Below, one piece after another: positions 5,509-53,917 of a DNA stretch of 64,000 nucleotides. Origin of the DNA: Nitrospirota bacterium. GTDB lineage: Bacteria > JACPQY01. The position numbers were made by a program, and so were the translations under genes. The DNA is taken from contig JACPAV010000007.1 in the NCBI GenBank assembly GCA_016180645.1, forward strand, positions 124,001 through 188,000, in the 5' to 3' direction. The first letter of the stretch is position 1. Each line of letters opens with the position of its first letter. The notes beneath the pieces are model-generated. The model had not been told where the DNA came from and did no database searches. It worked only from the letters and a program-made list of their open reading frames with translations.

Positions 5509-5667
5509 ACAAGACGGTCTCCAACCGACCCGCGTTGCCAACTCCATGGATTTGAGCTACATACCGCAGGGTAAGCTGAAGCATGAAACGACAACGGCCA
5601 AAGGGGGGAGCGGAATCCCGGTCAATCCAGCATGTCAGTCTCCTGGGTCGGGCGGCGGCAGCCATCC

Positions 5668-7677
5668 ATGAATAACTTTGGCGAGAAGGTCAATTTCATC
5701 TGGTCGGTGGCCGACCTGCTGCGCGGGCCGTACAGGCCGAACCAGTACAAGGACGTGATGCTGCCCCTGACCGTTCTCCGGCGGCTGGATTGCGTCCTGG
5801 AACCTACAAAGGCGAAAGTCCTAGAGAAGCTGAAGAGTCTCCAGGGCGGCAAAGTGAAAAACGTCGAGCCGATTCTGTGCCGCGTCGCCGGCGTGCCGTT
5901 CTACAACACCAGCCGGTTCTCGTTCGAGAAGCTGAAGGGCGATCCGAACAATGTCGCCGCCAATCTCACCCACTACATCAAGGGATTCTCCAGCCGCGCC
6001 CGGGAAATCATCGAGCATTTCGGGTTCGAGGAGCACATCGCCAAGCTCGACAAGGCGGATCGCCTTTTCCTCGTCGTCTCGAAGTTCTGCGAGATCGATC
6101 TCCACCCGGACAAGGTGCCGAACATCGAAATGGGCACGATCTTCGAGGAGCTGATCCGAAAGTTCAACGAGGCGTCGAACGAGGAAGCAGGCGACCACTT
6201 CACGCCCCGCGAGGTCATCCGACTCATGGTGAACCTGCTCTTCCTGCCGGACAACGACGTGTTGACCACCAAGGGCATCGTCAAAACCCTTTATGATCCG
6301 GCGGCTGGAACGGGTGGAATGCTCTCCGTGGCCGAGGAGTATGTGCGTGAACTGAATCCGGACGCCCGACTGGAGGTCTTCGGTCAGGACTTCAACCCGC
6401 AAGCCTACGCTATTTGCGGGTCGGACATGATGATCAAGGGGCAGAGCCTCGACAACATCCGATTCGGCGACAGCTTTACCCAGGACCATCATGCGGGCAG
6501 AAACTTCGACTACATGCTCGCGAATCCACCTTTTGGCGTGGAATGGAAACCGCAGGAGAAGGTCATCCGCAAGGAGCACGAGGAACAGGGATTCGGCGGA
6601 CGCTTTGGAGCGGGACTGCCGCGCATCAACGATGGATCGTTCCTGTTCCTCCAGCACATGATCGGCAAGATGAAGGAGGCGAAGGAGGGCGGTACGCGGT
6701 TGGGGATCGTCTTCAACGGCTCGCCCCTTTTCACAGGGTCGGCGGGATCGGGCGAGAGCGAGATCAGAAAATGGATCATCGAGAACGACTGGCTGGAAGG
6801 CATAGTCGCCCTCCCGGACCAGCTTTTCTACAACACCGGCATCTACACATACCTGTGGATTGTCACGAACCGGAAGGAGAAGAGTCGGCGCGGGAAGATC
6901 CAGCTTGTGAATGGGACGACATTTTTCTCGAAGATGCGCAAGAGCCTCGGACAGAAACGGCATGAGATCGGCGAGTCCCATCGCAACGAGATCACGCGCC
7001 TCTATGGTGAATTCAAGGAGGGGGAATTCGTCCGCATTTTCGACAATCCGGATTTCGGATACCGCCGGATCACCGTGGATCGCCCGCTCCGGCTTAATTT
7101 CGCGGTTACTGAAGAACGAGTGGCCCGTCTGCGGGAAGCCTCGGCCTTCATGAGCCTTGCGGCGAGCCAGAAAAAGGACAAGAAGCTCAGGCTGGCGAAG
7201 GAGGGGGCGGGGCAGGAAGAGCAGAAGCTCATTCTGGCAATTCTCAAGAACAAGATGGACACCTCCACCTTCAAGAATCGCGAGGAATTTCTCGGAAGAC
7301 TCAAGCAGGCGTTCACAGACGGCCACTGGACGGTCGGCGGCCCGCTGATCAAAGCCGTCCTGGAATCCCTTTCCGAGCGGGACGAAAGCGCCGAAATTTG
7401 CCAGGACTTCAAGGGGAATCCCGAACCCGATCCGGAACTGCGCGACTACGAGAATGTTCCCCTCAAGGAAGACGTGACGGAGTACATGAAGCGCGAAGTC
7501 CTCCCTCACGTTGCTGATTGCTGGGTTGACGAGTCGAAAACCAAGATCGGCTACGAGATCAACTTCAACCGGTATTTCTACAAGTATGCACCTCCGCGTC
7601 CGCTCGCGGAAATCGAGGCGGACCTGAAGAAAATCGAGGGCGAGATTGCGGCAATGCTGGGGGAGACGTCCGAATGA
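5668..7677 (+). CDS. hsdM: Type I restriction-modification methyltransferase subunit M (system 1)
   Basis: N6-adenine DNA methyltransferase subunit of a type I restriction-modification complex, 669 residues. Seen: an HsdM-type N-terminal helical domain, SAM-binding motif I DPAAGTGGM at about residue 210 and catalytic motif IV NPPFG at about residue 286. A C-terminal extension after residue 460 ends in a Glu/Lys-rich helix, as in longer HsdM proteins. The ATG at 5668 starts MNNFGEKVNFIWSVADLLRG, where the family normally begins; an upstream in-frame ATG at 5632 is less likely. It is the first gene of a co-directional run to 20424 and overlaps the next gene by ATGA. Its partners hsdS and hsdR lie 6 and 9 kb downstream, separated by accessory genes. 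Confidence 0.93.
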   Translation: MNNFGEKVNFIWSVADLLRGPYRPNQYKDVMLPLTVLRRLDCVLEPTKAKVLEKLKSLQGGKVKNVEPILCRVAGVPFYNTSRFSFEKLKGDPNNVAANLTHYIKGFSSRAREIIEHFGFEEHIAKLDKADRLFLVVSKFCEIDLHPDKVPNIEMGTIFEELIRKFNEASNEEAGDHFTPREVIRLMVNLLFLPDNDVLTTKGIVKTLYDPAAGTGGMLSVAEEYVRELNPDARLEVFGQDFNPQAYAICGSDMMIKGQSLDNIRFGDSFTQDHHAGRNFDYMLANPPFGVEWKPQEKVIRKEHEEQGFGGRFGAGLPRINDGSFLFLQHMIGKMKEAKEGGTRLGIVFNGSPLFTGSAGSGESEIRKWIIENDWLEGIVALPDQLFYNTGIYTYLWIVTNRKEKSRRGKIQLVNGTTFFSKMRKSLGQKRHEIGESHRNEITRLYGEFKEGEFVRIFDNPDFGYRRITVDRPLRLNFAVTEERVARLREASAFMSLAASQKKDKKLRLAKEGAGQEEQKLILAILKNKMDTSTFKNREEFLGRLKQAFTDGHWTVGGPLIKAVLESLSERDESAEICQDFKGNPEPDPELRDYENVPLKEDVTEYMKREVLPHVADCWVDESKTKIGYEINFNRYFYKYAPPRPLAEIEADLKKIEGEIAAMLGETSE

Positions 7678-8273
7678 AATACGGCCGCCGGTCCGTCCGC
7701 TTGCAGGGCTACGACTACGCCCAATCCGGCGCGTATTTCGTGACGATGTGCGCGCAGGGGAGGGAATGCCTTTTCGGTGACGTGGTAGACGGCGACATCG
7801 TGTTGAATGACGCGGGACGAATCACGGAACGATGTTGGTTGGCAATTCCGGCCCATTTCCCCCATGTTCAATTGGACGTATTCGTCGTTATGCCCAACCA
7901 TCTTCATGGGGTCTTGTTGATCTACGACATCCCCGCCGCATCGGCCGTATCCGTAGGGGCGAAAAATATTTCGCCCCTACAATCCGACAAATCCGCCGGC
8001 CAACGGCCACGTGGGACATCGAAAACCATCGGTTCGGTCATTCGTGGATTCAAAATCGGCGTGACCAAATGGTTCCGGCAAAACACCTCGATCCACATGG
8101 TGTGGCAACGCAATTACTACGAACACGTCGTTCGCAACGACGACGAATTGAACCGCATCCGGGAATACATCGTCAATAACCCGGCGCAATGGGAAATGGA
8201 TCTGGAGAATCCAGCTGCGGGAGCGATCCGGCGGGTTGTCCCAACGGAAAGGCCGTGCGAAGACGCACAATGA
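7674..8273 (+). CDS. REP-associated tyrosine transposase-like protein (RAYT, Y1/HUH family)
   Basis: A 199-residue single-domain HUH protein of the TnpA_REP/RAYT group. Seen: the metal-binding HxH in MPNHLHG (His76, His78), an upstream Y1-type N-terminus (SGAYFVTMCAQGRE), and the C-terminal segment NYYEHVVRNDDELNRIREYI with candidate catalytic tyrosines. Such proteins nick and join single-stranded palindromes (REP elements). Unusually, it starts within the hsdM stop (ATGA, 7674-7677). A perfect palindrome is embedded in its own reading frame (7953-7980), and a 10-bp hairpin covers its stop codon. It may be a mobile intruder or a domesticated member of the operon. Confidence 0.85.
   Translation: MKYGRRSVRLQGYDYAQSGAYFVTMCAQGRECLFGDVVDGDIVLNDAGRITERCWLAIPAHFPHVQLDVFVVMPNHLHGVLLIYDIPAASAVSVGAKNISPLQSDKSAGQRPRGTSKTIGSVIRGFKIGVTKWFRQNTSIHMVWQRNYYEHVVRNDDELNRIREYIVNNPAQWEMDLENPAAGAIRRVVPTERPCEDAQ
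7953..7980 (+). repeat. REP-like perfect palindrome inside the RAYT gene
   Basis: Two perfect 12-base arms, GTAGGGGCGAAA (7953-7964) and TTTCGCCCCTAC (7969-7980), are separated by AATA. The element is read in frame as part of the protein (around residues 94-102, VGAKNISPL), so it adds residues without breaking the gene. GTAGGGG...CCCCTAC ends recur in the large folded element at 63066-63191. Confidence 0.85.
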
Positions 8274-8285
8274 CACATTGTGCGT
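8263..8285 (+). repeat. Perfect 10-bp hairpin over the RAYT stop codon
   Basis: The arms ACGCACAATG (8263-8272) and CATTGTGCGT (8276-8285) are perfect inverted repeats with loop ACA. The TGA stop at 8271-8273 lies in the hairpin. No T-run follows, so a classical terminator is unlikely. RAYT genes are typically flanked by REP palindromes, and this may be one. Confidence 0.65.
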
Positions 8286-8309
8286 ATGCGAAGTACACCC
8301 CGCCCATTC

Positions 8310-8327
8310 ACACCAATATTAGTGTTG
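8310..8327 (+). promoter_or_regulatory. Imperfect palindrome upstream of the HigBA-like pair
   Basis: The sequence ACACCAATATTAGTGTTG, about 10 bases before the toxin start, is a near-perfect dyad centred on AATATT. Toxin-antitoxin operons usually have such an operator bound by the antitoxin HTH protein. The operator function is inferred from position and symmetry only. Confidence 0.3.
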
Positions 8328-8334
8328 ACACATC

Positions 8335-8688
8335 GTGGAGTTCAGCGTAGAGTTCTACGAGTCGCCCGCGGGCCGATGTCCGGTTCGGGAGTTCCTTGAG
8401 GAATTGAGAACGGACGACCCGGATGACTTTGCAGCGGTAATGGCGGGACTCGTGAAGCTCCGGCAAAGGCGGAATCACCGGCCGCCGATTTCGAAGCCGG
8501 TGGGCGGGGGATTATTCGAACTGCGGCATGTGGGCAAGTTGAATTCGAGAGTGATGTACTTCTTTGTGAGGGGACGGCGGATTGTGACTGTACACGGGAT
8601 ACGCAACAAGGCGCGAGACATCTCCCCTCGTGATCGGGTGGCGGCATTGGAGCGGATGAGAGACTGGCGGGCGAGGAACGAAGCATGA
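8335..8688 (+). CDS. RelE/HigB-like toxin (phage gp49-like, DUF891)
   Basis: A 117-residue protein of the gp49-like branch of the RelE/ParE superfamily, ribosome-dependent mRNA interferases or related toxins. Seen: N-terminal VEFYESPAGRCPVREFLEEL, the central GLFELRH and RVMYFFVRGRRIVTVHGIRNK core strands, and a C-terminal helix. Translation would start at GTG 8335. The next gene, an XRE-type antitoxin, overlaps by ATGA (8685-8688), giving the toxin-first order of HigBA modules. It lies inside the type I operon between hsdM and hsdS, where it may stabilise the locus. Confidence 0.85.
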   Translation: MEFSVEFYESPAGRCPVREFLEELRTDDPDDFAAVMAGLVKLRQRRNHRPPISKPVGGGLFELRHVGKLNSRVMYFFVRGRRIVTVHGIRNKARDISPRDRVAALERMRDWRARNEA

Positions 8689-9026
8689 AAAAGACGAATT
8701 TCGACATCTATTTGGAAGAACAGATGAGAGACAAGGCTTTTGCGGCGCGGTTCCGTCGGGCGGGTGAGGCGTGGGACGTGGCCCTCCAGATTGCGGCGCT
8801 TCGGAAAGAGGCGGGTCTTTCGCAGAAGGAACTTGCCAAACGACTCCGCACGACCCAGCAACAGGTCAGTCGCTTGGAGTCGACGTCCTACGAGGGTCAT
8901 TCGCTCAGCATGCTCCGCCGGGTTGCGGCGGCGCTGGACGCCCGCGTCCGGGTGGTCCTCGAGCCGGCCCGCTCCCGCGGGCACACCATCCTTGCAGAGC
9001 GGCAGGCCAAATATGGAATCCGGTGA
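8685..9026 (+). CDS. XRE-family HTH antitoxin (HigA-like)
   Basis: A 113-residue DNA-binding protein. A helix-turn-helix is visible at about residues 35-75 (IAALRKEAGLSQKELAKRL, then TTQQQVSRLES), preceded by an acidic/aromatic N-terminal segment. It ends in a basic tail. The gene overlaps the upstream toxin (ATGA) and is the expected cognate antitoxin and autorepressor of the pair, as known for HigBA-type modules. Confidence 0.87.
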   Translation: MKKTNFDIYLEEQMRDKAFAARFRRAGEAWDVALQIAALRKEAGLSQKELAKRLRTTQQQVSRLESTSYEGHSLSMLRRVAAALDARVRVVLEPARSRGHTILAERQAKYGIR

Positions 9027-9074
9027 GACCGAGGGTTGAGGGGGCGGTGTGATGAGAAAGAGAAGGCAAGGCCT

Positions 9075-10770: not shown

Positions 10771-10896
10771 AGAGGTGGAAATCTGGTCACGATTCAAGAC
10801 CGGAAAATGTTGTTTCTCCGGAATTGTGATATACATTACACTGGTGGTGTCGTAGTGAACCACATTGCGGCTCGATCTTGCCAGCCAACTCCGCGA

Positions 10897-11823
10897 ATGC
10901 ACGGAAATGGTGGGCACATCTTAGATCAGGGGTTGTTGGAAGCGGGGTCACTCTCTCCCCACATTGCGCCGTCGCGCCCGTTTCTTCGTTGGGCCGGATC
11001 GAAGCGGTGGCTCTTGAGGCAGATTGTTCATATCCTGCCACGCCAGTTCGGTAGATACCACGAGCCATTTCTCGGGTCCGGCGCGCTCTTCTTCTTTCTC
11101 GGACCCCAGCGAGCGTTGCTGACTGATAAGTGTAGCGAATTGATTGATGTCTACACGATGATCAGGCATGAGGTGTCCACCATCATTCGATACTTGAGAC
11201 CGATGAAGCCGAACCGCGACCTGTTCTACGCCATTCGCAACCAGCCGAGCCGGGGCAGGCTGAAGCGAGCAGCCGAGTTCCTGTATCTCAACAAAACCTG
11301 CTGGAATGGGCTGTACCGCGTCAACTCGGAGGGACGGTTCAACGTTCCGTACGGGATGCCCAGAACGGACTTCATCGCGGACTTCGAAAATCTCCGTGCA
11401 TGCTCCCAGGTCCTTGAGAGGCCCGGAGTGAAGCTCCGGTCCTGTGATTTCGAGGCCGCCTTGGTGAACGTGAAGGCCGGCGATCTGGTTTACCTTGATC
11501 CGCCATACGTTACGCGGCACAACAACAACGGCTTCGTCGATTACAACGAAACTCTCTTCTCCTGGGAGGATCAGAGACGCCTAGCCACGCGCGCGCGGCA
11601 GATCGCAAATGCTGGGGCCTATGTAATCGTGACCAACGCCAACCATCGAGAGGTTGTGGAGCTTTACCAAGGCTTCAAGAGCCGTACTCTGACACGGTCT
11701 TCGACTCTGGCCTCTGACTTCAAGTGCCGGGGTCGAGTGAAAGAAGCCCTCCTGTACTCTCCGAATTGCGGGGAGGGACGTAGATCACCGTGCCGAAGGG
11801 TTCTTGGAGGCAGCGATGACTAG
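10897..11823 (+). CDS. DNA adenine methylase (Dam/D12 class)
   Basis: N6-adenine methyltransferase of the D12 (Dam/DpnM) class. Seen: the N-terminal SAM-binding motif FLRWAGSKRWLL, the motif-I-like HEPFLGSGALFF, LNKTCWNGLYRVN and the catalytic DPPY (about residue 200). The chosen ATG at 10897 is uncertain: an in-frame ATG at 10807 and a GTG at 10855 are alternatives, and no Shine-Dalgarno sequence decides. The 3' end overlaps the ParB-like gene by 8 bases. With that gene and the PRTase-like gene it forms a tight three-gene cassette inserted between the ATPase stub and hsdS, so it is probably a separate module rather than part of the type I enzyme. Confidence 0.88.
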   Translation: MHGNGGHILDQGLLEAGSLSPHIAPSRPFLRWAGSKRWLLRQIVHILPRQFGRYHEPFLGSGALFFFLGPQRALLTDKCSELIDVYTMIRHEVSTIIRYLRPMKPNRDLFYAIRNQPSRGRLKRAAEFLYLNKTCWNGLYRVNSEGRFNVPYGMPRTDFIADFENLRACSQVLERPGVKLRSCDFEAALVNVKAGDLVYLDPPYVTRHNNNGFVDYNETLFSWEDQRRLATRARQIANAGAYVIVTNANHREVVELYQGFKSRTLTRSSTLASDFKCRGRVKEALLYSPNCGEGRRSPCRRVLGGSDD

Positions 11824-12787
11824 ACGGACCAAGGCCCTTGTTCCCGAGCCGGTCGGTGTCAAGACCCTCCGGACGAACCAGCTCCAGCCGAATCCGCACA
11901 ATCCTAGGATGCTCTTCGACAAAGCGCCGATGAAGACGCTCCAAGATTCAATTGGTCAGGTCGGAATCCTGGTGCCGCTCACTGTCTACCAGCGCAGGTC
12001 GGACCGGCAATTCATCATCTTGGACGGCCAGCGGCGGTGGATCTGCGCACAGAAGGTCGGGCTGCCGACGGTGCCTGTAAATCAGGTCGCCGAGCCAAAC
12101 CTGGTTCAAAACATAGTGACGATGTTTCAGATCCACAAGCTGCGCAAAGATTGGGAGCTCATGCCGACGGCGCTCAAACTTGAAGTCCTCATAACGAAGC
12201 TGCAGGAGAAATCAGATCGCAAGCTGGCGGAACTGACGGGTCTGGATATCGCCGTCGTAACCCGTTGTAAGAAGCTGCTTTCGTACTCAAAGGAGTTCCA
12301 GGATCTGATGCTCGACCCAGACCCGGAAAAGCGCGTCAAGGCAGATTTCTTCATCGAGCTGTTTCCAGTCCTCCACGACAGGGTGGTCAAGAAGATGTCA
12401 CAACGCTCCCAAGGCCCCCTCGTTCGCAAGATGCTCGCGAAGCATCAAAGCACCGAGGGGGGTATCAGGGCAGTCACAGATTTCCGCAAGGTCAAGCAGC
12501 ATTTGGCAAACGCACGGAAGGCAGGCAAGGTCTCGGTAATCGCTCGCAGGTTTAAAGAGTTCGCCGAGAAGGTGGAGCTGAGTCCTGACCACCTGGTGAT
12601 TCCGGCGGCTAACGTGTCAGCCCAGGCAAGATCACTTCACGGCAAGGTCGAAAAACTCCAGGAAGCACTTGCAGGCCTTGACGTCGAGGCATACGTCGGC
12701 GAGGAAGCACTATGGGGCGCAATCGAGTCGCTACTTCGCACGGTTCGCAAATGCCTAGCGGTTGCAGGACGAAGGACCAATGAATGA
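11816..12787 (+). CDS. ParB/Srx-like N-terminal domain protein
   Basis: A 323-residue protein. Residues about 15-95 form a ParB/sulfiredoxin-like domain (LQPNPHNPRMLFDKAPMKTL, then IGILVPL and ILDGQRRWICAQKVG), with the D-G-x-R-R motif of the nucleotide-binding pocket. A helical HTH-like middle follows (KLAELTGLDIAVVTRCKKLL), then a long helical C-terminus. ParB-family folds act as CTP switches in segregation but also as nucleases or regulators in mobile elements. The ATG at 11816 has GGAGG six bases upstream and overlaps the methylase. The stop overlaps the next start (ATGA). No ParA is present, so plasmid-type segregation is unlikely. Confidence 0.8.
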   Translation: MTRRTKALVPEPVGVKTLRTNQLQPNPHNPRMLFDKAPMKTLQDSIGQVGILVPLTVYQRRSDRQFIILDGQRRWICAQKVGLPTVPVNQVAEPNLVQNIVTMFQIHKLRKDWELMPTALKLEVLITKLQEKSDRKLAELTGLDIAVVTRCKKLLSYSKEFQDLMLDPDPEKRVKADFFIELFPVLHDRVVKKMSQRSQGPLVRKMLAKHQSTEGGIRAVTDFRKVKQHLANARKAGKVSVIARRFKEFAEKVELSPDHLVIPAANVSAQARSLHGKVEKLQEALAGLDVEAYVGEEALWGAIESLLRTVRKCLAVAGRRTNE

Positions 12788-13611
12788 GAACACCCAAAGA
12801 TCGCGGGAAACCAGTCGACGCTGGCCGTATGAGATCTTGGCTGGACCGGTTCGACGGCTATCGAATTGCGGTGACAGATCAGCGAATCAGCGCTTGGCTC
12901 CAGCGCTTTAGACGAGATGATACTGATCTCGGAGCAAGGCTCCTCGACGCGGTCATGTTCCTCAGGTCCGAGGACATGGAGGAGGCACTGCGCAAGCTGG
13001 TGGACCATCTACCGGGTTGGGATAAAAGTCACGCGCGCCGGGAGGGGAAGTGGCGTTTCCTAGCCTTCTCAATCAGCGCTGGCGAGAGTGGAGATACGAT
13101 GCTCCACAAGTCACGAACCGCCCTCGGACTGACTGGCGGTCGATACGATCAACTATTCATCCACAAGGCCGATCTGCTCAAAGAGGAGCTTGGCTGCGAC
13201 GACAGCGTAGTTTTCTTTGATGACTTTGCCGGGACGGGTCGGCAAGCTTGTCGTGCGTGGCATGAAACCCTTGCGGAGTTACTTCCCGGAAGCCCAAGGG
13301 CGTATTTGGTCCTTGTTGCAGCTGGGGAGCGGGCCGTTGATCGCATTGCTCAGGAGACAGGATTGAAGGTCGTGACAAAACATGTACTCGGCGTTGGTGA
13401 TGACATTTTCTCAGGGGAATGCGAGCATTTCAGCCGAACGGAGAAAGAACGCCTGGTTGAGTATGGAAAGATAGCGGCTCGAAAGATGCCACGAGGCTAC
13501 GGGGACTGTGGCTTCGTGATCGTGTTGGCTCACAAGACTCCGAACAATTCGATCCCAATCCTTCATGCCAATCACGGTCACTGGAGAGGATTATTCCCGA
13601 GGCACGGATAA
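12784..13611 (+). CDS. Phosphoribosyltransferase-like conflict-system protein (PRTase-CE-like)
   Basis: A 275-residue protein. The central VVFFDDFAGTGRQ (about residues 141-153) resembles the PRPP-binding loop of phosphoribosyltransferases (hydrophobic strand, two acidic residues, then a G/T-rich turn). The C-terminus has the conserved-looking HKTPNNSIPILHANHGHW. I relate it to the PRTase-CE family described computationally in bacterial conflict systems, where it acts as a presumed effector or nucleotide-modifying enzyme. This assignment is from motif recognition. It overlaps the ParB-like gene by ATGA, so the two are co-translated with the upstream methylase. Confidence 0.6.
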   Translation: MRTPKDRGKPVDAGRMRSWLDRFDGYRIAVTDQRISAWLQRFRRDDTDLGARLLDAVMFLRSEDMEEALRKLVDHLPGWDKSHARREGKWRFLAFSISAGESGDTMLHKSRTALGLTGGRYDQLFIHKADLLKEELGCDDSVVFFDDFAGTGRQACRAWHETLAELLPGSPRAYLVLVAAGERAVDRIAQETGLKVVTKHVLGVGDDIFSGECEHFSRTEKERLVEYGKIAARKMPRGYGDCGFVIVLAHKTPNNSIPILHANHGHWRGLFPRHG

Positions 13612-13697
13612 CCGACAACTCGCCACCGGCAGCGCTTCAAGTGCTCAATCCTCATCCGCTGGGAGTCAGACATATTGCTTGCCGATCTGATGATGCC

Positions 13698-14987
13698 ATG
13701 AACTGGCGAGCGTATCCTGAAACCAAGCCGTCCGGCTTGGAGTGGCTGGGGGAGATTCCATCAGGCTGGCGGACCATGCGGCTCAAGTACTGCGCTTCCC
13801 TCGTCAACGAGAAAACAGATGGATTCGCCTCGGAATTGCCATACACCGGGCTTGAACACATCGAGTCCTGGACCGGAAAACGGGTTCAGACGGGTGAAAA
13901 ACCGGAAGCTGAAGGGCAGGCAAGCAAGTTCTGCGGGGGAGACCTCCTCTTTGGGAAATTACGACCGTATCTGGCCAAGGTTTTCCGTTCCGACGAAAGC
14001 GGCATCTGCACCGGAGAGCTGTTGGTCTTGCGGACGAAGAACGTCAGCCGTGACTACCTTTTCTACTATGTACTGGCACGGGATTTCATTTCAATCGTTG
14101 ACTCCTCCACCTATGGGGCGAAGATGCCCAGGGCAAGCTGGGAATTCATCGGAAATCTTCCAGCACTTGTTCCTTCTGACAATGAGCAACGCGCGATCGC
14201 GGCGTTTTTGGATCGGGAGACGGGGCGGATTGATGGGCTGATTGAGAAGAAAGAGCGGCAGATCGAACTCCTACAGGAAAAACGCGCGGCTGTAATCACC
14301 CATGCCGTGACGAAGGGCCTCGATCCGAAGGCCCCCATGAAAGATTCCGGCATCGAGTGGCTGGGAGAGATTCCGGCGCATTGGACTATTCGTCAACTTA
14401 AGTACGTGGCCACGTTTCAGAGAGGACATGATCTTCCAGATTCAGTGCGAGCGGAGGGGGCAGTCCCCGTCGTTACGTCTGGGGGCATTTCCGGGAGTCA
14501 TGATGAATACCGCGCAAAGGGACCCGGAATCGTAACGGGTCGGTACGGGACGATTGGCACGATTTACTATGTCGAGGATGACTTTTGGCCGCACAATACG
14601 ACGCTATATTGTAGCAATTCGCGAGGCAACAATATGAGGTTTCTCTGGTACCTGCTTCAGAATATCTCCGGCTTTTTTCTTCTCAACGCAGGAAAATCAG
14701 CGGTTCCGGGCGTAGACCGCAACGACCTGCATCCCATACCCGTAGCAATTCCTGTGGATGTTGACGAACAGAAGGAGATTGCAGGATTTCTCGACAGGGA
14801 GACGGTCAAGGGTGACGCCCTTTGTAAACGGATCGATGAATCCATTGCTGTTCTCCGCGAATACCGGACGGCGCTCATCTCGGCCGCCGTGACCGGCAAG
14901 ATCGATGTGCGGCCAGCGGACGGGGCACTCAGGAATCTGAACCAAGCCGATGAAGATGGACAAGACGTAACCGTGGTGGGAGAATAA
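13698..14987 (+). CDS. hsdS: Type I restriction specificity subunit S (system 1)
   Basis: DNA-recognition subunit, 429 residues with two target-recognition domains. Each begins with the same motif, SGLEWLGEIPSGW (about residue 12) and SGIEWLGEIPAHW (about residue 216). Each half ends in the conserved coiled-coil region: NEQRAIAAFLDRETGRIDGL in the first half and EQKEIAGFLDRETVKGDAL in the second. These halves set the bipartite target and bind two HsdM subunits. ATG 13698 begins MNWRAYPETKPSGLEW, as expected. It lies downstream of the Dam/ParB/PRTase cassette and 6 kb from its hsdM. The recognition sequence cannot be read from the protein. Confidence 0.92.
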   Translation: MNWRAYPETKPSGLEWLGEIPSGWRTMRLKYCASLVNEKTDGFASELPYTGLEHIESWTGKRVQTGEKPEAEGQASKFCGGDLLFGKLRPYLAKVFRSDESGICTGELLVLRTKNVSRDYLFYYVLARDFISIVDSSTYGAKMPRASWEFIGNLPALVPSDNEQRAIAAFLDRETGRIDGLIEKKERQIELLQEKRAAVITHAVTKGLDPKAPMKDSGIEWLGEIPAHWTIRQLKYVATFQRGHDLPDSVRAEGAVPVVTSGGISGSHDEYRAKGPGIVTGRYGTIGTIYYVEDDFWPHNTTLYCSNSRGNNMRFLWYLLQNISGFFLLNAGKSAVPGVDRNDLHPIPVAIPVDVDEQKEIAGFLDRETVKGDALCKRIDESIAVLREYRTALISAAVTGKIDVRPADGALRNLNQADEDGQDVTVVGE

Positions 14988-16030: not shown

Positions 16031-16621
16031 GTGAAGCGGAGGAGAAGGCCCGTCGTCGTTGTCCTCGCCGGGCCAAACGGCGCGGGAAAATCGACCGTCG
16101 GGCCGAGGTTGTTGAAAGAAACGCTCCGGGTGGTGGAGTTCATTAACACCGATACCATCGCCTTGGGACTTTCCGCTTTCCGGCCCGAAGGGGCGGCCAT
16201 CGAGGCAGGGAGGGTGATGTTACGCAGATTCGAGGAGCTTGCCCATAAACGGGAAAACTTTGCCGTCGAATCGACGCTCGCGGGGCGCACGCTCGCCCCT
16301 CGTCTGGCCGGGTTGAAGAAAAGGGGCTACAAGATTCACATCATTTTCATCCGGCTCGCGAGCGATGCACTCGCCATTGAAAGAGTCGCTGACCGTGTGA
16401 GGTCCGGGGGGCACAATATCCCCATAGACGTCATCCGACGACGGTACCGCCGAGGTCTCCGGAACTTCTTCCATTTCTACATGCCCCTTGCCGATGACTG
16501 GCGGCTATACGATAATTCTGGTCCAGTGGGTCCAAGGCTTGTGGCATTCGGAAGGAAGAAACTCAAGATCCACGTGATGGAGCCGGCTGTTTGGAGAATA
16601 GTGGAGGAAGGCGCGTCTTGA
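16031..16621 (+). CDS. Zeta-toxin family P-loop kinase
   Basis: A 196-residue P-loop kinase. Walker A GPNGAGKST is at residues 14-22, FINTDTIA follows (the zeta-type Asp that activates the substrate), then FAVESTLAGRT and RVADRVRSGGH (arginine-rich lid). The zeta-toxin superfamily phosphorylates UDP-GlcNAc or related small substrates, but many chromosomal members are uncharacterised kinases. GTG 16031 is the start. The next small gene begins within its stop (TTGA overlap), suggesting a coupled partner or antitoxin. Confidence 0.85.
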   Translation: MKRRRRPVVVVLAGPNGAGKSTVGPRLLKETLRVVEFINTDTIALGLSAFRPEGAAIEAGRVMLRRFEELAHKRENFAVESTLAGRTLAPRLAGLKKRGYKIHIIFIRLASDALAIERVADRVRSGGHNIPIDVIRRRYRRGLRNFFHFYMPLADDWRLYDNSGPVGPRLVAFGRKKLKIHVMEPAVWRIVEEGAS

Positions 16622-16890
16622 GCAGGAACAACGTTGATATTGACCGAATCTTTTCTGAGGGGAAGCTGATTGATAGGGCACTCCGGGATGGCGTGCGGGC
16701 CGCCATGATCCGGCACAAGCAATTGGGGCTGCCTGTCGTGGACTTTCAGGACGGGAAGATTGTGCTGGTCCCCCCGCAGAAGATCGACACCCTGCTTAGG
16801 GCGTCCAACGGCAGGAAGGTCAAACGCGCAACCCGCCACCGTCGCCGCAAGGCTCAGCCCGCGCCTCGCCGGTCGGCCAAACGGCGGTAA
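16618..16890 (+). CDS. Small basic partner protein of the zeta-like kinase
   Basis: About 90 residues from TTG 16618, which overlaps the kinase stop (TTGA). The N-terminal half (RIFSEGKLIDRALRDGVRAA, then HKQLGLPVVDFQDGKIVLVP) recurs, in my recollection, beside this branch of zeta-like kinases. The C-terminal 25 residues are very rich in Arg/Lys (KRATRHRRRKAQPAPRR). It is probably the antitoxin or partner of the kinase. An in-frame upstream ATG at 16591 would place its start inside the kinase gene and is less attractive. Confidence 0.6.
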   Translation: MSRNNVDIDRIFSEGKLIDRALRDGVRAAMIRHKQLGLPVVDFQDGKIVLVPPQKIDTLLRASNGRKVKRATRHRRRKAQPAPRRSAKRR

Positions 16891-16908: not shown

Positions 16909-19900
16909 GTGCCGGGGCAACACACCGAGAAAGCGTTCGAAACCGCCATCGAAGACTTCCTCGTCTCCGGGGGCGGGTACAGTAAGGGCGACAAGTCGGC
17001 GTACGATCCTGCGCGGAGCTTGTTCCCCCAAGAGGTCTTGGGATTCATCCGCGAGACTCAGCCCAAGGAATGGGAGTACCTCAAGAATCTCCAAAAAGAG
17101 AAAGCCGAAGAGATTCTTTTTGATGACCTCTGCCGCGCGCTCGACTCAAATCAGGAAGGCTGCCTCTCCGTGCTCCGGCACGGGTTCAAGTGCTTCGGAA
17201 AGCTGTTCCGCGTGGCGTATTTCTCTCCGGCCAGCGGTCTGAATCCGGAAATCCAGAAGCTCTACGATGCGAACCGGCTGACGATCACCCGTCAGGTCGT
17301 CTATTCAAGCCGGCACGGGAATTCAATTGATGTCGCGTTGGCGCTGAATGGGATTCCCGTCGCCACCGCCGAACTTAAGAATCCCATGACCGGCCAGAAC
17401 TGGCGTCACGCCATCCACCAGTACAAGAGCGACCGAGATCCTGCCGATCTGATCCTTCAATTCAAGAAGCGGGCGCTGGTCCACTTTGCGGCGGACCCGG
17501 ACGAGGTCTACATGACCACCCGCCTCGCGGGCGGCAATACCCACTTCCTGCCCCTCAACCGGGGCCATAACAACGGCGCGGGGAACCCGGAAAATCCCAC
17601 GGGGTGGAAAACGGCCTACCTCTGGGAGGAAATCCTGGAGCGGCACAGCTTTCTGGATATTCTCGCGCGATTCGTCCATCTCCAGGTCGAAGAGAAGAAG
17701 CTGGGCGGGAAGACCGTCAAACGAGAGAGCATGATTTTCCCACGCTACCACCAGCTTGATTCGGTCCGGCGGCTGGTTGCGGACGTGCGCCGGGAGGGGG
17801 CGGGGACGAACTATCTTGTCCAGCATTCCGCGGGGAGCGGGAAGAGCAACTCCATTGCGTGGCTCGCCCATCGGCTGTCGAGCCTCTACAACGAGAAGGA
17901 CGAGAAGGTGTTTGACTCGGTGGTGGTGGTGACGGATCGGGTTGTTCTGGACCAGCAGCTTCAGAACACGATCTATCAATTCGAGCACAAGCAGGGCGTC
18001 GTCCAGAAGATCGACGTCGATTCCGAACAGTTGGCGAAGGCGCTCTCCGCCGGAGTCCCCATCGTGATTACGACGCTTCAGAAGTTTCCTTTCGTGACCG
18101 AGAAGATCGGCGATCTCCCCAAACGGAAGTACGCCGTCATCATCGACGAAGCGCACAGCTCGCAGGGCGGGGAGACGGCGGCTGATCTGAAGGGTGTTCT
18201 CGGCGGCGCGGCCATCAGGGAGGAAGCGCAGAAGAAGAAGGAAGAAGAGGGGCTGACGGACTACGAGGAGGAGGTCTTGCGGACGATGGCCAAACGTGGT
18301 CGCCAGCCGAACATCAGCTTCTTCGCCTTCACGGCCACGCCCAAATACAAGACGCTCGAAGTCTTCGGTCGTCCAGGAGCGTACGGAAAGCCTCAGCCAT
18401 TCCATCTCTACAGCATGCGCCAGGCCATCGAGGAACGCTTCATCCTGGACGTTCTCAAGCACTACACGACTTACCAGACCTACTACCGCCTTGTGAAATC
18501 CATCGAGGACGATCCCAAGGTGGACAAGCGCAAGGCAGCCCGCGCGCTTGCACGGTTTATGAGCCTGCACCCGCACAACATCGCCCAGAAGACGGAGGTT
18601 ATGGTCGAGCATTTCCGCCATTTCACGATGCACAAGATCGGAGGCCGCGCGAAGGCCATGGTGGTCACGTCCAGCCGCCTCCATGCCGTGCGGTACAAAT
18701 TGGAATTCGACAAGTACATCAAGGAAAAGGGCTACAGGGGCATCAAGACGCTCGTCGCTTTCTCCGGAAGGGTGATCGATCCGGATGTACGGGGGATGGA
18801 GTTCACCGAGGAGGGCATGAACATCGATGCCAAGGGGAATCGAATCCGTGAGAAGGAACTCCCGGAGCGGTTCGGGACGGATGAATATCAAGTGCTTCTC
18901 GTGGCGGAGAAGTTCCAGACCGGGTTCGACCAGCCGTTGCTGCACACCATGTACGTGGACAAGCGACTTGCGGGAATCCAGGCCGTTCAGACCCTATCGA
19001 GGCTGAATCGGACATGCCCCGGCAAGGAGGACACCTTCGTGCTGGACTTTGTGAACGACCCGAAGGAGATCCAGGATGCGTTTCAACCGTATTACGAGCA
19101 GACGCTTGTGGGGGAGCGCGCCGAGGCGAAGCAACTCTACGAACTTCAGGCCAAGCTGAACGCGCATCAAATCTATCACGCGGAGGAAGTCGAGGAGTTT
19201 TGCAAGGCGTTCTATCGTCCCGCGCGGGAGCAAACCCCCGCCGATCATGCCCGCATGAACGCGTGTCTCGATCCCGCCGTGGGACGATTCAAGGAACTCG
19301 AGGAGGACAAGCGGGAGGAGTTCCGGAAAACCTTGATCGCGTATCGGAACCTGTACGCGTTTCTGTCGCAGGTGATCCCGTTCCAGGATTCGGACTTGGA
19401 GAAGCTCTACACGTACATCCGATTCCTTCTGGCGAAGCTTCCGAGGGAGGATCGGGGTCCCGTCTACGACTTCGAGGATGAGGTGGCGCTCAAGTACTAC
19501 CGGGTCCAGAAGATCGGCGAGGGTTCGATCAAGCTGGATGCGGGGAAGCAAGCGCCCATCTCCGGGCCGACGGAAGTCGGAACGGGAGTGGTCCGGGGAG
19601 TCCAGATCGAGCTGTCGAAATTGATCGACATCTTGAACGAGCGATTCGGGACGGAGTTTAAGCCGGGCGATCAACTATTCCTGGACTCGATCAAGGAGGA
19701 CGCAGTGGGCAACTCCAATTTGAGGCAGGCGGCATTGGCTAACACGATGGAGAACTTCGGATACGTCTTCCTGAAGGCGCTCGAAGGATTGTTCATCGAC
19801 CGGATGGAACAAAATGAGGAGATGACGGCGCGGTTCATGAACGACGGGGAGTTCAAGGAGGTGATCGGGAAACACCTCTTGAAGGAAGTCTACCAGCACA

Positions 19901-20424
19901 TCCGGTCACAGGGATCGAAAGGGCAAGCGGAGGTCCTGCCATTCCGGCGCGTGACGCCCTCGGAGAAGGACAAGTACCGGACTTGCCTGCCGTTGGTGCC
20001 GCTTCAGGCCGCCGCGGGCGCATTCAGTGGATCGCAGGCGGTTTCGCCGCAGGATGGCGAGTGGGTGGAAATTGATTCGGGGCACAAGTTGAGGCTGGGC
20101 ATGTTCGTGGCGCAGGTGAAAGGTCGTTCCATGGAGCCGCGCATCCCGGATGGCGCATACTGCCTGTTTCGCGCTCCTGTGGAGGGCTCCCGGCAGGGTC
20201 GGACTGTGCTGGCGCAGCATCGCGACATCCACGACCCCGATTCCGGCGGGCAGTACACCGTCAAACGGTATACCAGTCGCAAGGTGGCGGATGGCGCGGG
20301 TGGCTGGCGGCACGTCGAGATCGCCCTCCAGCCTGAGAACAAAGATTACGCCCCCATCATGCTGAAAGCCGACGACGAAGGTTCCATCTCCGTCATCGCC
20401 GAACTTTTGGAAGTGCTCAAGTAG
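16909..20424 (+). CDS. hsdR: Type I restriction subunit R with C-terminal LexA/S24-like domain (system 1)
   Basis: Translocase-nuclease subunit, 1171 residues from GTG 16909 with a GGGGAGG-like Shine-Dalgarno sequence. Domains: an HsdR-type PD-(D/E)XK nuclease (Asp about 140, ELK about 154-156); SF2 helicase with Walker A SAGSGKSN (about 307), DEAH (about 413), FTATPK and QTLSRLNRT; and a C-terminal helical region of the EcoR124I type. The last 140 residues add a peptidase-S24/LexA-like domain: catalytic-Ser motif GRSMEP (about 1072), catalytic-Lys motif VKRY (about 1117) and an upstream Ala-Gly bond in QAAAGAF (1036-1037), placed as in LexA-type self-cleavage. Typical HsdR proteins lack this. 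The domain could cleave or regulate the enzyme. Confidence 0.9.
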   Translation: MPGQHTEKAFETAIEDFLVSGGGYSKGDKSAYDPARSLFPQEVLGFIRETQPKEWEYLKNLQKEKAEEILFDDLCRALDSNQEGCLSVLRHGFKCFGKLFRVAYFSPASGLNPEIQKLYDANRLTITRQVVYSSRHGNSIDVALALNGIPVATAELKNPMTGQNWRHAIHQYKSDRDPADLILQFKKRALVHFAADPDEVYMTTRLAGGNTHFLPLNRGHNNGAGNPENPTGWKTAYLWEEILERHSFLDILARFVHLQVEEKKLGGKTVKRESMIFPRYHQLDSVRRLVADVRREGAGTNYLVQHSAGSGKSNSIAWLAHRLSSLYNEKDEKVFDSVVVVTDRVVLDQQLQNTIYQFEHKQGVVQKIDVDSEQLAKALSAGVPIVITTLQKFPFVTEKIGDLPKRKYAVIIDEAHSSQGGETAADLKGVLGGAAIREEAQKKKEEEGLTDYEEEVLRTMAKRGRQPNISFFAFTATPKYKTLEVFGRPGAYGKPQPFHLYSMRQAIEERFILDVLKHYTTYQTYYRLVKSIEDDPKVDKRKAARALARFMSLHPHNIAQKTEVMVEHFRHFTMHKIGGRAKAMVVTSSRLHAVRYKLEFDKYIKEKGYRGIKTLVAFSGRVIDPDVRGMEFTEEGMNIDAKGNRIREKELPERFGTDEYQVLLVAEKFQTGFDQPLLHTMYVDKRLAGIQAVQTLSRLNRTCPGKEDTFVLDFVNDPKEIQDAFQPYYEQTLVGERAEAKQLYELQAKLNAHQIYHAEEVEEFCKAFYRPAREQTPADHARMNACLDPAVGRFKELEEDKREEFRKTLIAYRNLYAFLSQVIPFQDSDLEKLYTYIRFLLAKLPREDRGPVYDFEDEVALKYYRVQKIGEGSIKLDAGKQAPISGPTEVGTGVVRGVQIELSKLIDILNERFGTEFKPGDQLFLDSIKEDAVGNSNLRQAALANTMENFGYVFLKALEGLFIDRMEQNEEMTARFMNDGEFKEVIGKHLLKEVYQHIRSQGSKGQAEVLPFRRVTPSEKDKYRTCLPLVPLQAAAGAFSGSQAVSPQDGEWVEIDSGHKLRLGMFVAQVKGRSMEPRIPDGAYCLFRAPVEGSRQGRTVLAQHRDIHDPDSGGQYTVKRYTSRKVADGAGGWRHVEIALQPENKDYAPIMLKADDEGSISVIAELLEVLK

Positions 20425-44077: not shown

Positions 44078-45547
44078 TCATGACGATGGGACGTCTTCTT
44101 CAATCGCTCGGAACTGCCCCAATGCGGATTCGAGGTCATCGGCGATCTCGGCAGCGATGACGCCCGGGGAGGGAAGATTCGCCCACTCTTCGAGAGATTC
44201 GTCCTTCAGCCAGAAGATGTCGAGGTTGGCCTTGTCCCGCTTGATGAGTTCGTCGTAGGAGAAGGACTTGAACCGTTCGCTCTCCTTGCGTTGGTGACGG
44301 TTCTTCGGGTTGAAGCAGCGAACGAAATCGTTCAAGTCCTCGCGTTTGAGCGGGTTCTCCTTGAGCGTGAAGTGCATGTTCGTCCGGAGATCGTGGATCC
44401 AGAGCTTTTGCGTCCAGGGCTTTTCGCCGGCAGGTTTTCGGTCGAAGAACAGGACGTTCGCCTTCACGCCTTGCGCGTAGAAAACCCCGGTGGGCAGACG
44501 CAGCAGGGTGTGAACGTCCGCCTGATGAAGGAGCTTCCGGCGAATCGTTTCCCCGGCGCCGCCTTCGAAGAGGACGTTGTCGGGGACAACAATCGCCGCC
44601 CTGCCGTGCTGTTGGAGCAAGGTGAACACGTGCTGGAGGAAATTGAGCTGTTTGTTGCTCGTTGTCGCCCAGAAATCGTCCCGATGGATGGTCAGGCTTT
44701 CGCGCTCGGCGCGCCCCTCGTCGTTCACAATGGTTACGCTGCTCTTTTTCCCGAAGGGCGGATTCGTTAGGACCATTTCGTAGTGGCGTCCGCCCTGGTC
44801 CGCCAGGGCATCCCGGACATCGATGGGAACCTTGTCCGCGCCATTCCCGCCGATGCCGTGAAGGAGCAGGTTCATGCAACAGAGCCGGGCGACGCCGTCA
44901 ACCAGTTCAAGGCCGTAAAGCGTCCCGCTCTTGAGGCGTTTCTTCTGTTCGCGGTCCAACGTGTGGTGCTTGGCGATGTAGTCGTGGGCGGCGAGGAGGA
45001 ACCCGCCCGTTCCGCACGCGGGGTCGCAGACGGTCATGCCCGGTTCAGGCCGCATCACCTCCACGAGGGCGGCGATGAGCGGACGCGGCGTGAAGTACTG
45101 GCCGGCGCCGCCTTTCACGTCCTCGGCGTTTTTCTGGAGCAGGCCCTCGTAGGCGTCGCCCTTCACGTCGGCGGATAGGGACGACCAATTTTCCTTGTCA
45201 ATCAGGTCCACGATGAGTCGCCTGAGTTTTGCGGGGTCCTGAATCTTGTTCTGGGCCTTTCGGAAAACGAGTCCGAGCATGCCCTTTTCTTTTCCGAGCG
45301 ATTCCAAGACGCGCCGGTAATGCGTTTCGAGTTCTTCGCCGTCGCGGGCCAATAGACTCGGCCAGTCGGAACCTTTCGGAACGGGTGAGGGCTTGTTGAG
45401 CGGAGGTCGCGTCTGCTCGTCCGCCATCTTGAGGAAGAGAAGGAACGTCAGTTGCTCGACGTAATCGCCGTACGACAGCCCATCATCCCGAAGGATGTTG
45501 CAATAGTTCCAGAGCTTCTGGACGAGTTGTTGGGAATGTTCGGCCAT
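44078..45547 (-). CDS. hsdM: Type I restriction-modification methyltransferase subunit M (system 2)
   Basis: A 489-residue HsdM of the compact type. Seen: N-terminal HsdM helices (QQLVQKLWNYCNILRDDGLS), EDVKGGAGQYFTPRPLI, motif I DPACGTGGFLLAA and motif IV LTNPPFGKKSS. An in-frame ATG at 45568 would add seven residues; ATG 45547 (MAEHSQQLV) is the more usual start. It is the last gene of the minus-strand system-2 operon; hsdS and hsdR lie 7-10 kb upstream, separated by accessory cassettes. A partial copy of its 5' end lies at 48918-48985. Confidence 0.93.
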   Translation of the reverse strand: MAEHSQQLVQKLWNYCNILRDDGLSYGDYVEQLTFLLFLKMADEQTRPPLNKPSPVPKGSDWPSLLARDGEELETHYRRVLESLGKEKGMLGLVFRKAQNKIQDPAKLRRLIVDLIDKENWSSLSADVKGDAYEGLLQKNAEDVKGGAGQYFTPRPLIAALVEVMRPEPGMTVCDPACGTGGFLLAAHDYIAKHHTLDREQKKRLKSGTLYGLELVDGVARLCCMNLLLHGIGGNGADKVPIDVRDALADQGGRHYEMVLTNPPFGKKSSVTIVNDEGRAERESLTIHRDDFWATTSNKQLNFLQHVFTLLQQHGRAAIVVPDNVLFEGGAGETIRRKLLHQADVHTLLRLPTGVFYAQGVKANVLFFDRKPAGEKPWTQKLWIHDLRTNMHFTLKENPLKREDLNDFVRCFNPKNRHQRKESERFKSFSYDELIKRDKANLDIFWLKDESLEEWANLPSPGVIAAEIADDLESALGQFRAIEEDVPSS

Positions 45548-45578
45548 ATCTACAGTGGTCCCAGACATCTGTTCGGAT

Positions 45579-46583
45579 TCATGCCAGCGTGTATCGTCCG
45601 GATTTTCTTGTTCCGCTGCGTTCTACCAGCTTCGCATCAATAAGCGGCGTAAGCAGATCCAGTGCCCCTTGTTTCGAGATCTTCAAGGCTTTCCAGATTT
45701 CAGCGGGCCTCATACCGCCACGGTCGCGAAGCAATTCGAGCAACTGTTCCTGTTTCGGTCTGAGCAGGAGCTTCTCTCCATGACATCCGGTAGACCATTC
45801 CCGGATTCGGCCCCAAACGTTTTCCAAGGTCACATGGACACCCTCGGCGGTATATTCGAGCCAGCTCGTCAGATTGCCGTCTGCCCGCTTGGGCTCGTCC
45901 AGGGCTTCGTAATATCGGTGCCGGTCGTTCCAATAGAACTCATCAACCGAGAAAATATGCTGCGTGTCGAAGCCTCGTCGGTACAGTTCCCACAAAGCCA
46001 GAATTCGGCCGGTCCGTCCGTTTCCATCGGCGAACGGGTGTATGTCCTCGAATCGGTGATGGACGACGGCCGATGTGATGACCGGCGACCACCGGAGCGA
46101 ACGATCGTTCCACCACGCCAATAGTTCAGACATCAGGCCGGAGACTTGCAAGGGAGGCGGGGGCATGTGCTTCCCCACCCTGACTTGAATGTCCCGATAC
46201 CGGCCTGCTTCCCCTTGTTGCATGACCCCCGTTGAGATAAGGCGGTGGATTTCCAGAACATGCCCGTGAGTCACCACCTTCACGGAAGAATTCTTTTCAA
46301 CGTATCGTAGGGCCGCCAGATGGTTCAAAACCTCGCGTTTTGACCGGGGCGTGGCGTCCGGCAGCGATTTGCCTTCAGCCAGTGCGCGCACTTTCTCCAA
46401 CGTCAGTGGGTTTCCTTCGATTGCCGTGGACGAGTGGGCCGTTCGGGTTCGGCTGTCCCTTTGAAGTTTCGGGACCCATGGCGCCTGGAGGGTGGACATG
46501 AGGATTTTCTCGCGCAGGGCCGCGATCTTCTCGATCCACTCGACGAGGAGGCCGGTTACCTGAAAGAGGGGTTCGTATGCCAC
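45579..46583 (-). CDS. Fic-domain protein (AMPylator-like), next to hsdM
   Basis: A 334-residue Fic protein. Seen: an N-terminal inhibitory-helix motif SSTAIEGNPL (class II type, near residue 54), active-site loop HPFADGNGRTGR and a C-terminal winged-helix-like region (RDRGGMRPAEIWKALKISKQ). Fic enzymes transfer AMP or similar groups to Ser/Thr/Tyr hydroxyls; the inhibitory Glu indicates self-control. Fic genes recur in type I operons with unclear purpose. It lies directly upstream of hsdM on the same strand. Three 11-bp repeats 24-45 bases before its start may regulate it. Confidence 0.92.
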   Translation of the reverse strand: MAYEPLFQVTGLLVEWIEKIAALREKILMSTLQAPWVPKLQRDSRTRTAHSSTAIEGNPLTLEKVRALAEGKSLPDATPRSKREVLNHLAALRYVEKNSSVKVVTHGHVLEIHRLISTGVMQQGEAGRYRDIQVRVGKHMPPPPLQVSGLMSELLAWWNDRSLRWSPVITSAVVHHRFEDIHPFADGNGRTGRILALWELYRRGFDTQHIFSVDEFYWNDRHRYYEALDEPKRADGNLTSWLEYTAEGVHVTLENVWGRIREWSTGCHGEKLLLRPKQEQLLELLRDRGGMRPAEIWKALKISKQGALDLLTPLIDAKLVERSGTRKSGRYTLA

Positions 46584-46596
46584 CCCGTCACACTAC

Positions 46597-46628
46597 AGAT
46601 AAGTCCAGTATTAGTCAAGTATGAGTCA
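46597..46628 (-). promoter_or_regulatory. Direct-repeat operator/promoter region of the fic gene
   Basis: On the plus strand AGTATTAGTCA (46607-46617) and AGTATGAGTCA (46618-46628) are adjacent 11-bp repeats, with a degenerate third (AGATAAGTCC, 46597-46606). Read on the minus strand they contain two TTGACT -35-like boxes. Phased 11-bp repeats place protein contacts on one helix face, suggesting an operator. Confidence 0.45.
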
Positions 46629-46670
46629 ACCGTCAAGGGTCCGGGTGTGTCCAGACCCGGCACCTGCCCG

Positions 46671-46770
46671 AGGATGCGGCGTGCAAGTTGGACTGGCGGA
46701 GGCGGGAGGCGCGAGAGAGGTCGGAGGCGACGAGTTTTTCGATCTCCTCGACCGCGCTCAGGCGGCGCAT
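46671..46770 (-). pseudogene. hsdS 3'-end fragment, copy a
   Basis: On the minus strand it encodes RRLSAVEEIEKLVASDLSRA then SRLRQSNLHAASSG, the C-terminal coiled-coil end of the system-2 HsdS, with no recognition domain. It shares a 23-bp identical core (from 46691) with copies b, c and the intact hsdS. The DUF4276 gene stop lies inside this fragment, so the junction is at about 46772. Confidence 0.85.
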
Positions 46771-47387
46771 TGAGAAGTGGGCCCCGTCCTCAGACTCTCC
46801 AGCATCTTCCTGATCTCGCGATAGCATTTGTCGAAGGAATCGGAATTGCGGGCCGTGGCCATGTCGAACACGGCGGCTAATGCCGGCTGATCATCCGTTT
46901 CAGAATAGCTCTCGCCGCTCGACATATGCGCACTTAACCAACCCTTTGCATCGCGGATGCCCTCCGGATCTGGAGGAGTCGTGATCCTTGTTGCCAGGTT
47001 ACGCTTGCCGCACAATGATCCCACCGCCGCAATGAACCACGCTTCGAATTCCCTTTTTGCCAGGATTACGGAAATGAGTGTGTCGCCCCGGGCGCGCCGC
47101 GCGCGTTCCAGAAGAATCGGCCCTTCCCTCGCTGGGCAGCAACCATTCCAATCACAGTCAAGAATTACGAGGATTCCACCTCGCCCCCGGAGCTTCCTGG
47201 CGGCAAGCTCGACCGAGCGCTCGACTTCTCCAGCCTTGATGAGGCGTGAGGCGGGCACCCGAAGGGGAGGCAGGACATGAGGGACGAAGCCGGCATCTAT
47301 CTCCTGCGCGATTCGGCGCACAAGAATCGGAACGGCCTCGATTTCCCCGTGGCCCTCCACAATTGCCGCAATTCTCACTTCCATCAT
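46758..47387 (-). CDS. DUF4276 family protein (TOPRIM-like)
   Basis: A 209-residue protein. N-terminal VEGHGEIEAVP (Glu in a V-E-G motif) and a following ILDCDWNGCCP (D-x-D) give a TOPRIM-like acid arrangement; LAKREFEAWFIAA follows. DUF4276 genes usually pair with an AAA ATPase, as here, with an ATGA overlap (47384-47387). The architecture parallels two-gene OLD/PARIS-type systems, in which an ATPase senses and a TOPRIM protein acts. Its last four residues (QCAA) are read from the hsdS fragment, showing that the gene end was created at the junction. Confidence 0.78.
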   Translation of the reverse strand: MMEVRIAAIVEGHGEIEAVPILVRRIAQEIDAGFVPHVLPPLRVPASRLIKAGEVERSVELAARKLRGRGGILVILDCDWNGCCPAREGPILLERARRARGDTLISVILAKREFEAWFIAAVGSLCGKRNLATRITTPPDPEGIRDAKGWLSAHMSSGESYSETDDQPALAAVFDMATARNSDSFDKCYREIRKMLESLRTGPTSQCAA

Positions 47388-48607: not shown

Positions 48608-48752
48608 CTCCCGGTTCGCCAGAGTACCGAAATTCGTTTCATAGTGTATAGACGCTTATACTGCACTCGGTGATTCTTTCAAACGTCGGGTGCCCATCAC
48701 CGGGGATTTCGGATACCAAAGCATTCGTGGCGGGTAGGGATCTCACCGGTTC

Positions 48753-48913
48753 CTACCACAGATCGCCGGAGAAGGCGGCGTGCAGGATGGACTGGCGGAG
48801 GCGGGAGGCGCGGGAGAGATTGGCGGCGACGAGCTTCTCCAATTTTCCGACTGCGCTCAGCCGGCGCTCAGCCTCGGCGACGATGCGGTCGTATTCATCC
48901 GATGATGATGGTA
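48753..48913 (-). pseudogene. hsdS 3'-end fragment, copy b
   Basis: Encodes DEYDRIVAEAERRLSAVGKL, EKLVAANLSRASRLRQSILH and AAFSGDLW, then a stop: the complete HsdS C-terminal end without recognition domains. About 44 bases from 48790 are identical to the intact hsdS at 52518. The 145-bp gap 48608-48752 beyond it holds only AT-rich sequence that may contain the ATPase promoter. Confidence 0.87.
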
Positions 48914-48917
48914 GGCC

Positions 48918-48985: not shown

Positions 48986-49013
48986 CCACCAATCAACGAG
49001 ACGCCCCCCTTTC

Positions 49014-50248: not shown

Positions 50249-50348
50249 TCGTGCCTGATCATTTCTGCATCCTTAACAAAGACGCTCATCACGACGTCTC
50301 TGCCGGAGGGGATGCCCATTTGTTTCAGAGTATACTTTCTCCGGCTGA

Positions 50349-53908: not shown

Positions 53909-53917
53909 GAGGTCATA

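Follow-up and report, generated by a model that had tools for sequence, protein, structure and literature searches.

A predicted LexA/UmuD-type self-cleavage module fused to the restriction subunit HsdR and shared with other bacterial defence enzymes

The window, a stretch of 64,000 nucleotides from a Nitrospirota bacterium (assembly GCA_016180645.1, contig JACPAV010000007.1, positions 124,001 to 188,000 of the forward strand), carries hsdM and hsdS genes in the same locus as an hsdR gene whose product ends in an S24/LexA-like module, placing the latter in a type I restriction-modification system (Table 1). The type I operon is split: hsdM and hsdS are separated by consecutive genes for a Dam-like D12 adenine methylase, a ParB-N protein and a PRTase-CE protein (10807-13611). 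An ORF resembling REP-associated transposases overlaps the end of hsdM and is followed by a HigB/HigA-like toxin-antitoxin pair (7674-9026; judged from the sequences), and a zeta-toxin-like kinase gene with a small following ORF lies directly 5' of hsdR (16031-16890). A Fic protein occupies the position before hsdR in two related loci, L025 and L058, the latter having the compact gene order hsdM, hsdS, Fic, hsdR-S24. A second type I system on the reverse strand of the window (44081-58057) includes an EcoEI-type HsdR that has no S24 module and is thus a natural control within the same genome. The host genome also encodes RecA, LexA and ClpX.

Table 1 Features of the type I locus and of the HsdR-S24 protein, with positions in the window
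Feature	Position	Strand	Remarks
hsdM, same system	5632..7677	+	HsdM_N and N6_Mtase
hsdS, same system	13641..14987	+	Methylase_S
hsdR with C-terminal S24 module	16909..20424	+	1171 aa, GTG start; full-length homologues 73-76% identical
HSDR_N nuclease domain	17092..17538	+	residues 62-210; D141, E155 and K157 invariant
SWI2/SNF2 SF2 motor	17749..18462	+	residues 281-518; Walker A GSGKS 309-313 and DEAH 413-416 invariant
T1R_D3-like second motor domain	18850..19029	+	residues 648-707 (Pfam)
S24/LexA-like module	19945..20421	+	residues 1013-1171; Pfam, model, fold matches, hhalign
Predicted scissile bond Ala1036-Gly1037	20014..20019	+	context LPLVPLQAAA/GAF (bond at the slash)
Predicted nucleophile Ser1074	20128..20130	+	82/82 modules, a count ascertained by a search pattern that contained Ser; in GRSMEP
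Predicted general base Lys1119	20263..20265	+	81/81 modules; in TVKRY

The hsdR gene is one uninterrupted ORF of 1171 codons. Pfam places HSDR_N, SWI2_SNF2, ResIII, a T1R_D3-like domain and Peptidase_S24 in its product, all above their cut-offs. The PD-(D/E)xK nuclease is matched by PF04313 with 54.1 bits (cut-off 25.1), the SF2 translocase motor by PF18766, PF04851 and PF22679, and the S24 peptidase by PF00717 at residues 1034-1162 (E 4.5e-8, 33.2 bits, cut-off 23.3). The NCBIfam model for hsdR, TIGR00348, scores 200.6 bits, below its curated cut-off of 284.55, which implies that the window protein is an HsdR of another subfamily. The first-pass annotation had named a frameshift or misassembly at about position 20000, joining two genes, as a finding that would refute the fusion; the probability of such an artefact is negligible, since the frame runs open without a stop and end-to-end homologues with the same arrangement occur in independent genomes of three other organisms (L025, L033 and L058, at the identity given in Table 1) and, at about 60% identity, in ten more. 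An AlphaFold model of the full-length protein was poor (pLDDT 52, 18 sequences) and was left out of the argument. The sequence evidence supports the view that the protein is a complete and apparently intact type I restriction subunit to which a LexA/UmuD-type module has been added at the C-terminus.

That the module is an added part follows from comparison with plasmid-borne HsdRs, which end where the module begins. The HsdR body of the window protein is found in 762 plasmid records. The closest plasmid relative, from Ketogulonicigenium vulgare (WP_013368424.1), shares 59% identity over residues 3-998 and likewise belongs to an hsdM-hsdS-hsdR operon, but it ends at 1012 aa (annotated 5992 to 9030 of its locus) and contains nothing of the module; a Natronococcus plasmid HsdR (53%) also lacks it. 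Haloarchaeal plasmids carry the HsdR body, and the module is absent from the one checked. In the EcoEI-type HsdRs of L081, L086, L091 and L098 the same module is found, but near the N-terminus, where it interrupts HSDR_N after the first helix and before the catalytic core. The second HsdR of the window (55301-58057, reverse strand) has this EcoEI-type site without an insert.

Modelled alone, the module gave a confident structure (pLDDT 88.5, pTM 0.84), and its best fold match is LexA of T. maritima (3k2z; Z 12.8 over 126 residues, rmsd 3.0), followed by E. coli LexA (Z 12.5), RecA-bound lambda CI (12.4) and UmuD' (10.8). A signal peptidase identity was rejected, as the fold match is weaker (Z ~6) and the sequence shows no sign of a membrane anchor. 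Alignment of the module with the host's own LexA by hhalign (95.8% probability, E 7.7e-9) superimposes the SM and TVKR motifs that hold Ser and Lys. Together with the Pfam match, these results bear out the earlier proposal of a LexA/UmuD-like domain with a Ser-Lys dyad, and the structure prediction that it had called for returned the LexA fold. The annotation had taken a lack of Ser-Lys geometry in the predicted structure as refuting; fold and alignment lend support to such a geometry. In the PDB, LexA is reached by fold comparison only, as PDB sequence searches with the module or its profile gave no real match, and the profile does not reach the PDB LexA sequences at E 0.01. The cleavage loop, residues 1033-1052, is modelled at low confidence (pLDDT 62-65), and the part holding the bond is drawn as a short helix rather than as a docked strand. 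In LexA, the scissile bond can lie at the dyad or about 20 Å away from it (PMC3834820).

The module resembles LexA, phage CI and UmuD (PF00717, S24) in its fold, in its Ser-Lys dyad and in an Ala/Cys-Gly bond placed upstream at similar spacing. It differs from them in being attached to a 1000-residue restriction motor instead of a DNA-binding domain: the N-terminal winged helix of the LexA repressor is absent, its place is taken by HsdR, and a separate LexA is encoded in the genome. Moreover, the module represents a separate subfamily with conserved motifs of its own (DPxTGG, WxH and RxG).

Codon positions place the predicted nucleophile at Ser1074 and the predicted general base at Lys1119. 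Both lie in the GRSMEP and VKRY motifs recognized in the first-pass annotation, which had numbered them about 1072 and about 1117; the upstream Ala-Gly bond is exactly where it had been put. Lys1119 and the bond lay outside the search pattern. Around the bond, P2 is Ala in 78 of 81 modules, P1 is Ala in 75, Cys in five and Val in one, and P1' is Gly in 74, Ser in four and Thr in three. Among free LexA/UmuD-type proteins, P2 is Ala in only 14 of 24 (Fisher p 1.3e-5, with relatedness ignored). The members with P1 Cys are Bacteroidales fusions to Schlafen group 3 (SLFN-g3) helicases (L082, L083, L085, L100 and L101), where the sequence AAC-G is like the UmuD cleavage site. In a separate family-profile survey of 386 genomes, mostly of different families, the module was found in 16, and Ser and Lys are kept in every row that covers those positions. 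Conservation of both dyad and bond is the pattern of an active self-cleaving enzyme and not of a relic; self-cleavage by the module is well supported by this invariance, as far as sequence can tell.

A scan of about 85,000 genomes yielded 341 relatives, of which the best 80 were kept; the rest of each protein was clustered and representatives were scanned for domains to define partner classes. Among these 80, the partner is an HsdR in 22 loci, in addition to the window. The first-pass annotation had suggested a search for the same fusion in other HsdR proteins, and the fusion proves to be far more widespread than a single case. The partner is a DEAD/MZB helicase in 19 loci (the member tested scores best against Druantia DruE), an SLFN-g3 helicase in 15, an Eco57I/DrmMI-like methylase of DISARM/Dpd-like loci in four, an EcoEI-type HsdR in four, type III Res proteins of two groups in three and two, and a type ISP enzyme in two, with single loci for a methyltransferase-HNH protein (L096) and an HTH protein (L087). 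The module is thus carried by about eight defence-enzyme classes besides the HsdR type of the window. It has the same invariant residues throughout, on partner enzymes that are unrelated or distant. Most partners are motors (HsdR, EcoEI HsdR, type III Res, type ISP, DruE-like and SLFN-g3), but a motor is absent from the module-bearing chain in the DrmMI-like methylases and in L096. All hosts among the best 80 loci are bacteria, and archaea are not represented there even though the HsdR body occurs on haloarchaeal plasmids, an absence that counts in favour of the RecA-dependent reading preferred below.

Some individual loci deserve mention. In L087 (6441-7277), the module on a short HTH protein has the form of a free-standing repressor; the fusion module may stem from such a protein or have given rise to it. 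L036 and L053 are DISARM/Dpd-like loci with a DpdE/DrmD-like helicase, in which only the Eco57I/DrmMI-like methylase bears the module; L036 also holds a DruE-like helicase. L024, a DruE-like-S24 helicase, lies on a contig labelled as a Klebsiella pneumoniae MAG, yet the proteins most closely related to it come from a cyanobacterium and a planctomycete, and the label is doubtful. A second module in the same locus, as would suit a paired switch, was found nowhere except as fragments in L063 and L089.

Several observations indicate that the module is transferred in one piece. The tree built from 81 modules requires 22 changes of partner label; its well-supported branches alone require at least five changes for HsdR, in a tree where so short a domain leaves many forks unresolved. 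Even within the HsdR subfamily of the window protein, a single module clade is rejected for 14 close relatives (AU p 0.0006), and the window protein and that of L058 share 77% of the HsdR body and 52% of the module. On these sequence comparisons, the module is best read as belonging to a distinct S24 subfamily, which has been shuffled onto many restriction and phage-defence enzymes driven by motors. Phage records searched with a single query gave no match and neither did a single-sequence viral scan, whereas a profile scan of viral contigs found two true fusions, L103 (HsdR-S24) and L104 (type III Res-S24). As these contigs are classed as viral, phages or prophages may carry the fusions.

RecA filaments stimulate the cleavage of LexA, CI and UmuD. 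The reading we favour, whose chances of being right or wrong we consider evenly balanced, is that the module is a portable LexA/UmuD-type self-cleavage switch, in which a RecA-triggered cut would leave an Ala-Ala end and lead to disposal of HsdR by ClpXP. We infer that RecA would be the signal, that cleavage would control restriction, and that it would turn restriction off rather than on; ClpXP would be the presumed agent of disposal. In an undamaged cell, HsdR-S24 would be uncut and active. The trigger would be RecA filaments assembled on single-stranded DNA, which could result from breakage of the cell's own DNA or from cuts made by the enzyme itself; Ser1074 and Lys1119 would then cut the bond between Ala1036 and Gly1037 and the 135-residue module would depart. 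The remaining body would end in ...LQAAA-COOH, an ssrA/LexA-like tail that ClpXP could take, and with HsdR destroyed restriction would stay off until the damage is repaired, so that restriction alleviation would be built into the enzyme.

The first-pass annotation had supposed that cleavage might release or switch the nuclease. The predicted cut neither frees nor divides the nuclease domain, although a C-terminal piece of about 15 kDa, the last 135 residues, would indeed go. What would remain is essentially the whole HsdR, followed by a short tail whose last residues are LQAAA. As this amounts to a normal HsdR plus a tail, removal of the module alone would not inactivate the enzyme, and so either the tail would be a degradation signal (off, the favoured alternative) or the module would be an inhibitor (on). 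The stricter conservation of P2 Ala in modules than in free proteins is as expected if the Ala-Ala end matters. Type I restriction is known to be alleviated after DNA damage, for EcoKI through ClpXP proteolysis of HsdR, in which no degron has been found (PMC3874165, PMC4231737), and the motor has been argued to be key to this alleviation (PMC4231737), which suits a module whose partners are mostly motors. In S. aureus, once CI and LexA have cleaved themselves under the action of RecA, their N-terminal fragments are taken by ClpX (PMC10584840). EcoKI alleviation is the same process as proposed here, a damage-linked switch-off of HsdR by proteolysis (PMC4231737, PMC11109961), but there ClpXP sees the translocating HsdR directly, and PMC11109961 describes it as not being an SOS function. 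Several observations speak against the favoured reading: EcoKI alleviation is no SOS function and works without such a module, the five Bacteroidales members with P1 Cys would not end in Ala-Ala, the loop with the bond is modelled at low confidence and as a helix, and the module also occurs on methylase partners whose own chain has no motor.

Cleavage activates UmuD, and by analogy the module could restrain HsdR, for example through forced dimerization or by keeping it from touching the methylase core, until damage signals during phage infection lead to a cleavage that frees the active enzyme. The cleavage product would closely match the HsdRs that naturally lack the module and are complete proteins. 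The conserved Pro lies nine residues from the P1' Gly (P1028 to G1037), which is the spacing in UmuD, as opposed to eight in LexA; P1 Cys also occurs, as in the UmuD cleavage site. However, a nuclease activated whenever RecA filaments form would hit a damaged chromosome with unmethylated sites, and the near-invariant Ala-Ala end suggests disposal. We regard an on switch of this kind as unlikely.

We also think it rather improbable that the module is a self-cleaving switch acting in cis with a trigger other than RecA, such as stalled translocation, strain within the R2M2S1 complex or some other stress. The sequence signature of its own and a Ser-to-Lys strand stretch longer than in LexA would be compatible with such a trigger, and the LexA-like protein IrvR is reported to depart from the RecA rule (PMC7101444). 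Motor partners could provide the force. Nevertheless, RecA is the known trigger for the relatives of the module, and the hosts seen are all bacteria. A dimerization or docking part with a relic dyad would fit the fact that LexA-type C-terminal domains dimerize and a model that does not show the bond in the active site, but this is very unlikely, because a relic would lose the Ser, the Lys and the small-residue bond, and practically all members retain them, in about nine partner classes and many phyla.

The S24 fold and its chemistry are known, as is HsdR. Their recurrent, shuffled combination across defence classes, with an S24/LexA-like module on HsdR or on other defence enzymes, was not found described in the literature searched, which comprised papers outside subscription; the architecture may be listed in domain databases. 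The main text of recent surveys on defence helicases and restriction systems (PMC12458937, PMC12839542, PMC11090510, PMC12707154) makes no mention of LexA or S24.

How a cell with damaged DNA survives its own restriction enzymes is a question of long standing. With EcoKI it is ClpXP that provides the solution, while the marking of HsdR remains unexplained (PMC4231737). In the fusions described here, a damage sensor seems to have become covalently joined to the enzyme in the course of evolution, and the predicted cut would expose a degradation tail. We tentatively extend this, as a possibility somewhat on the doubtful side, to a general damage switch at the protein level: the module would, time and again, have been transferred to type I, type III and type ISP enzymes, DISARM/Dpd-like methylases and Druantia-like or Schlafen-type helicases, RecA filaments would report breaks in the cell's own DNA, and the motors would be destroyed (or fired) without a transcriptional step. 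The presence of the same module on many defence classes may reflect a shared control principle, one that could be addressed with one set of point mutants, in the Ser, the Lys and the P1' Gly, and the module could mark those defence enzymes that need a damage switch.
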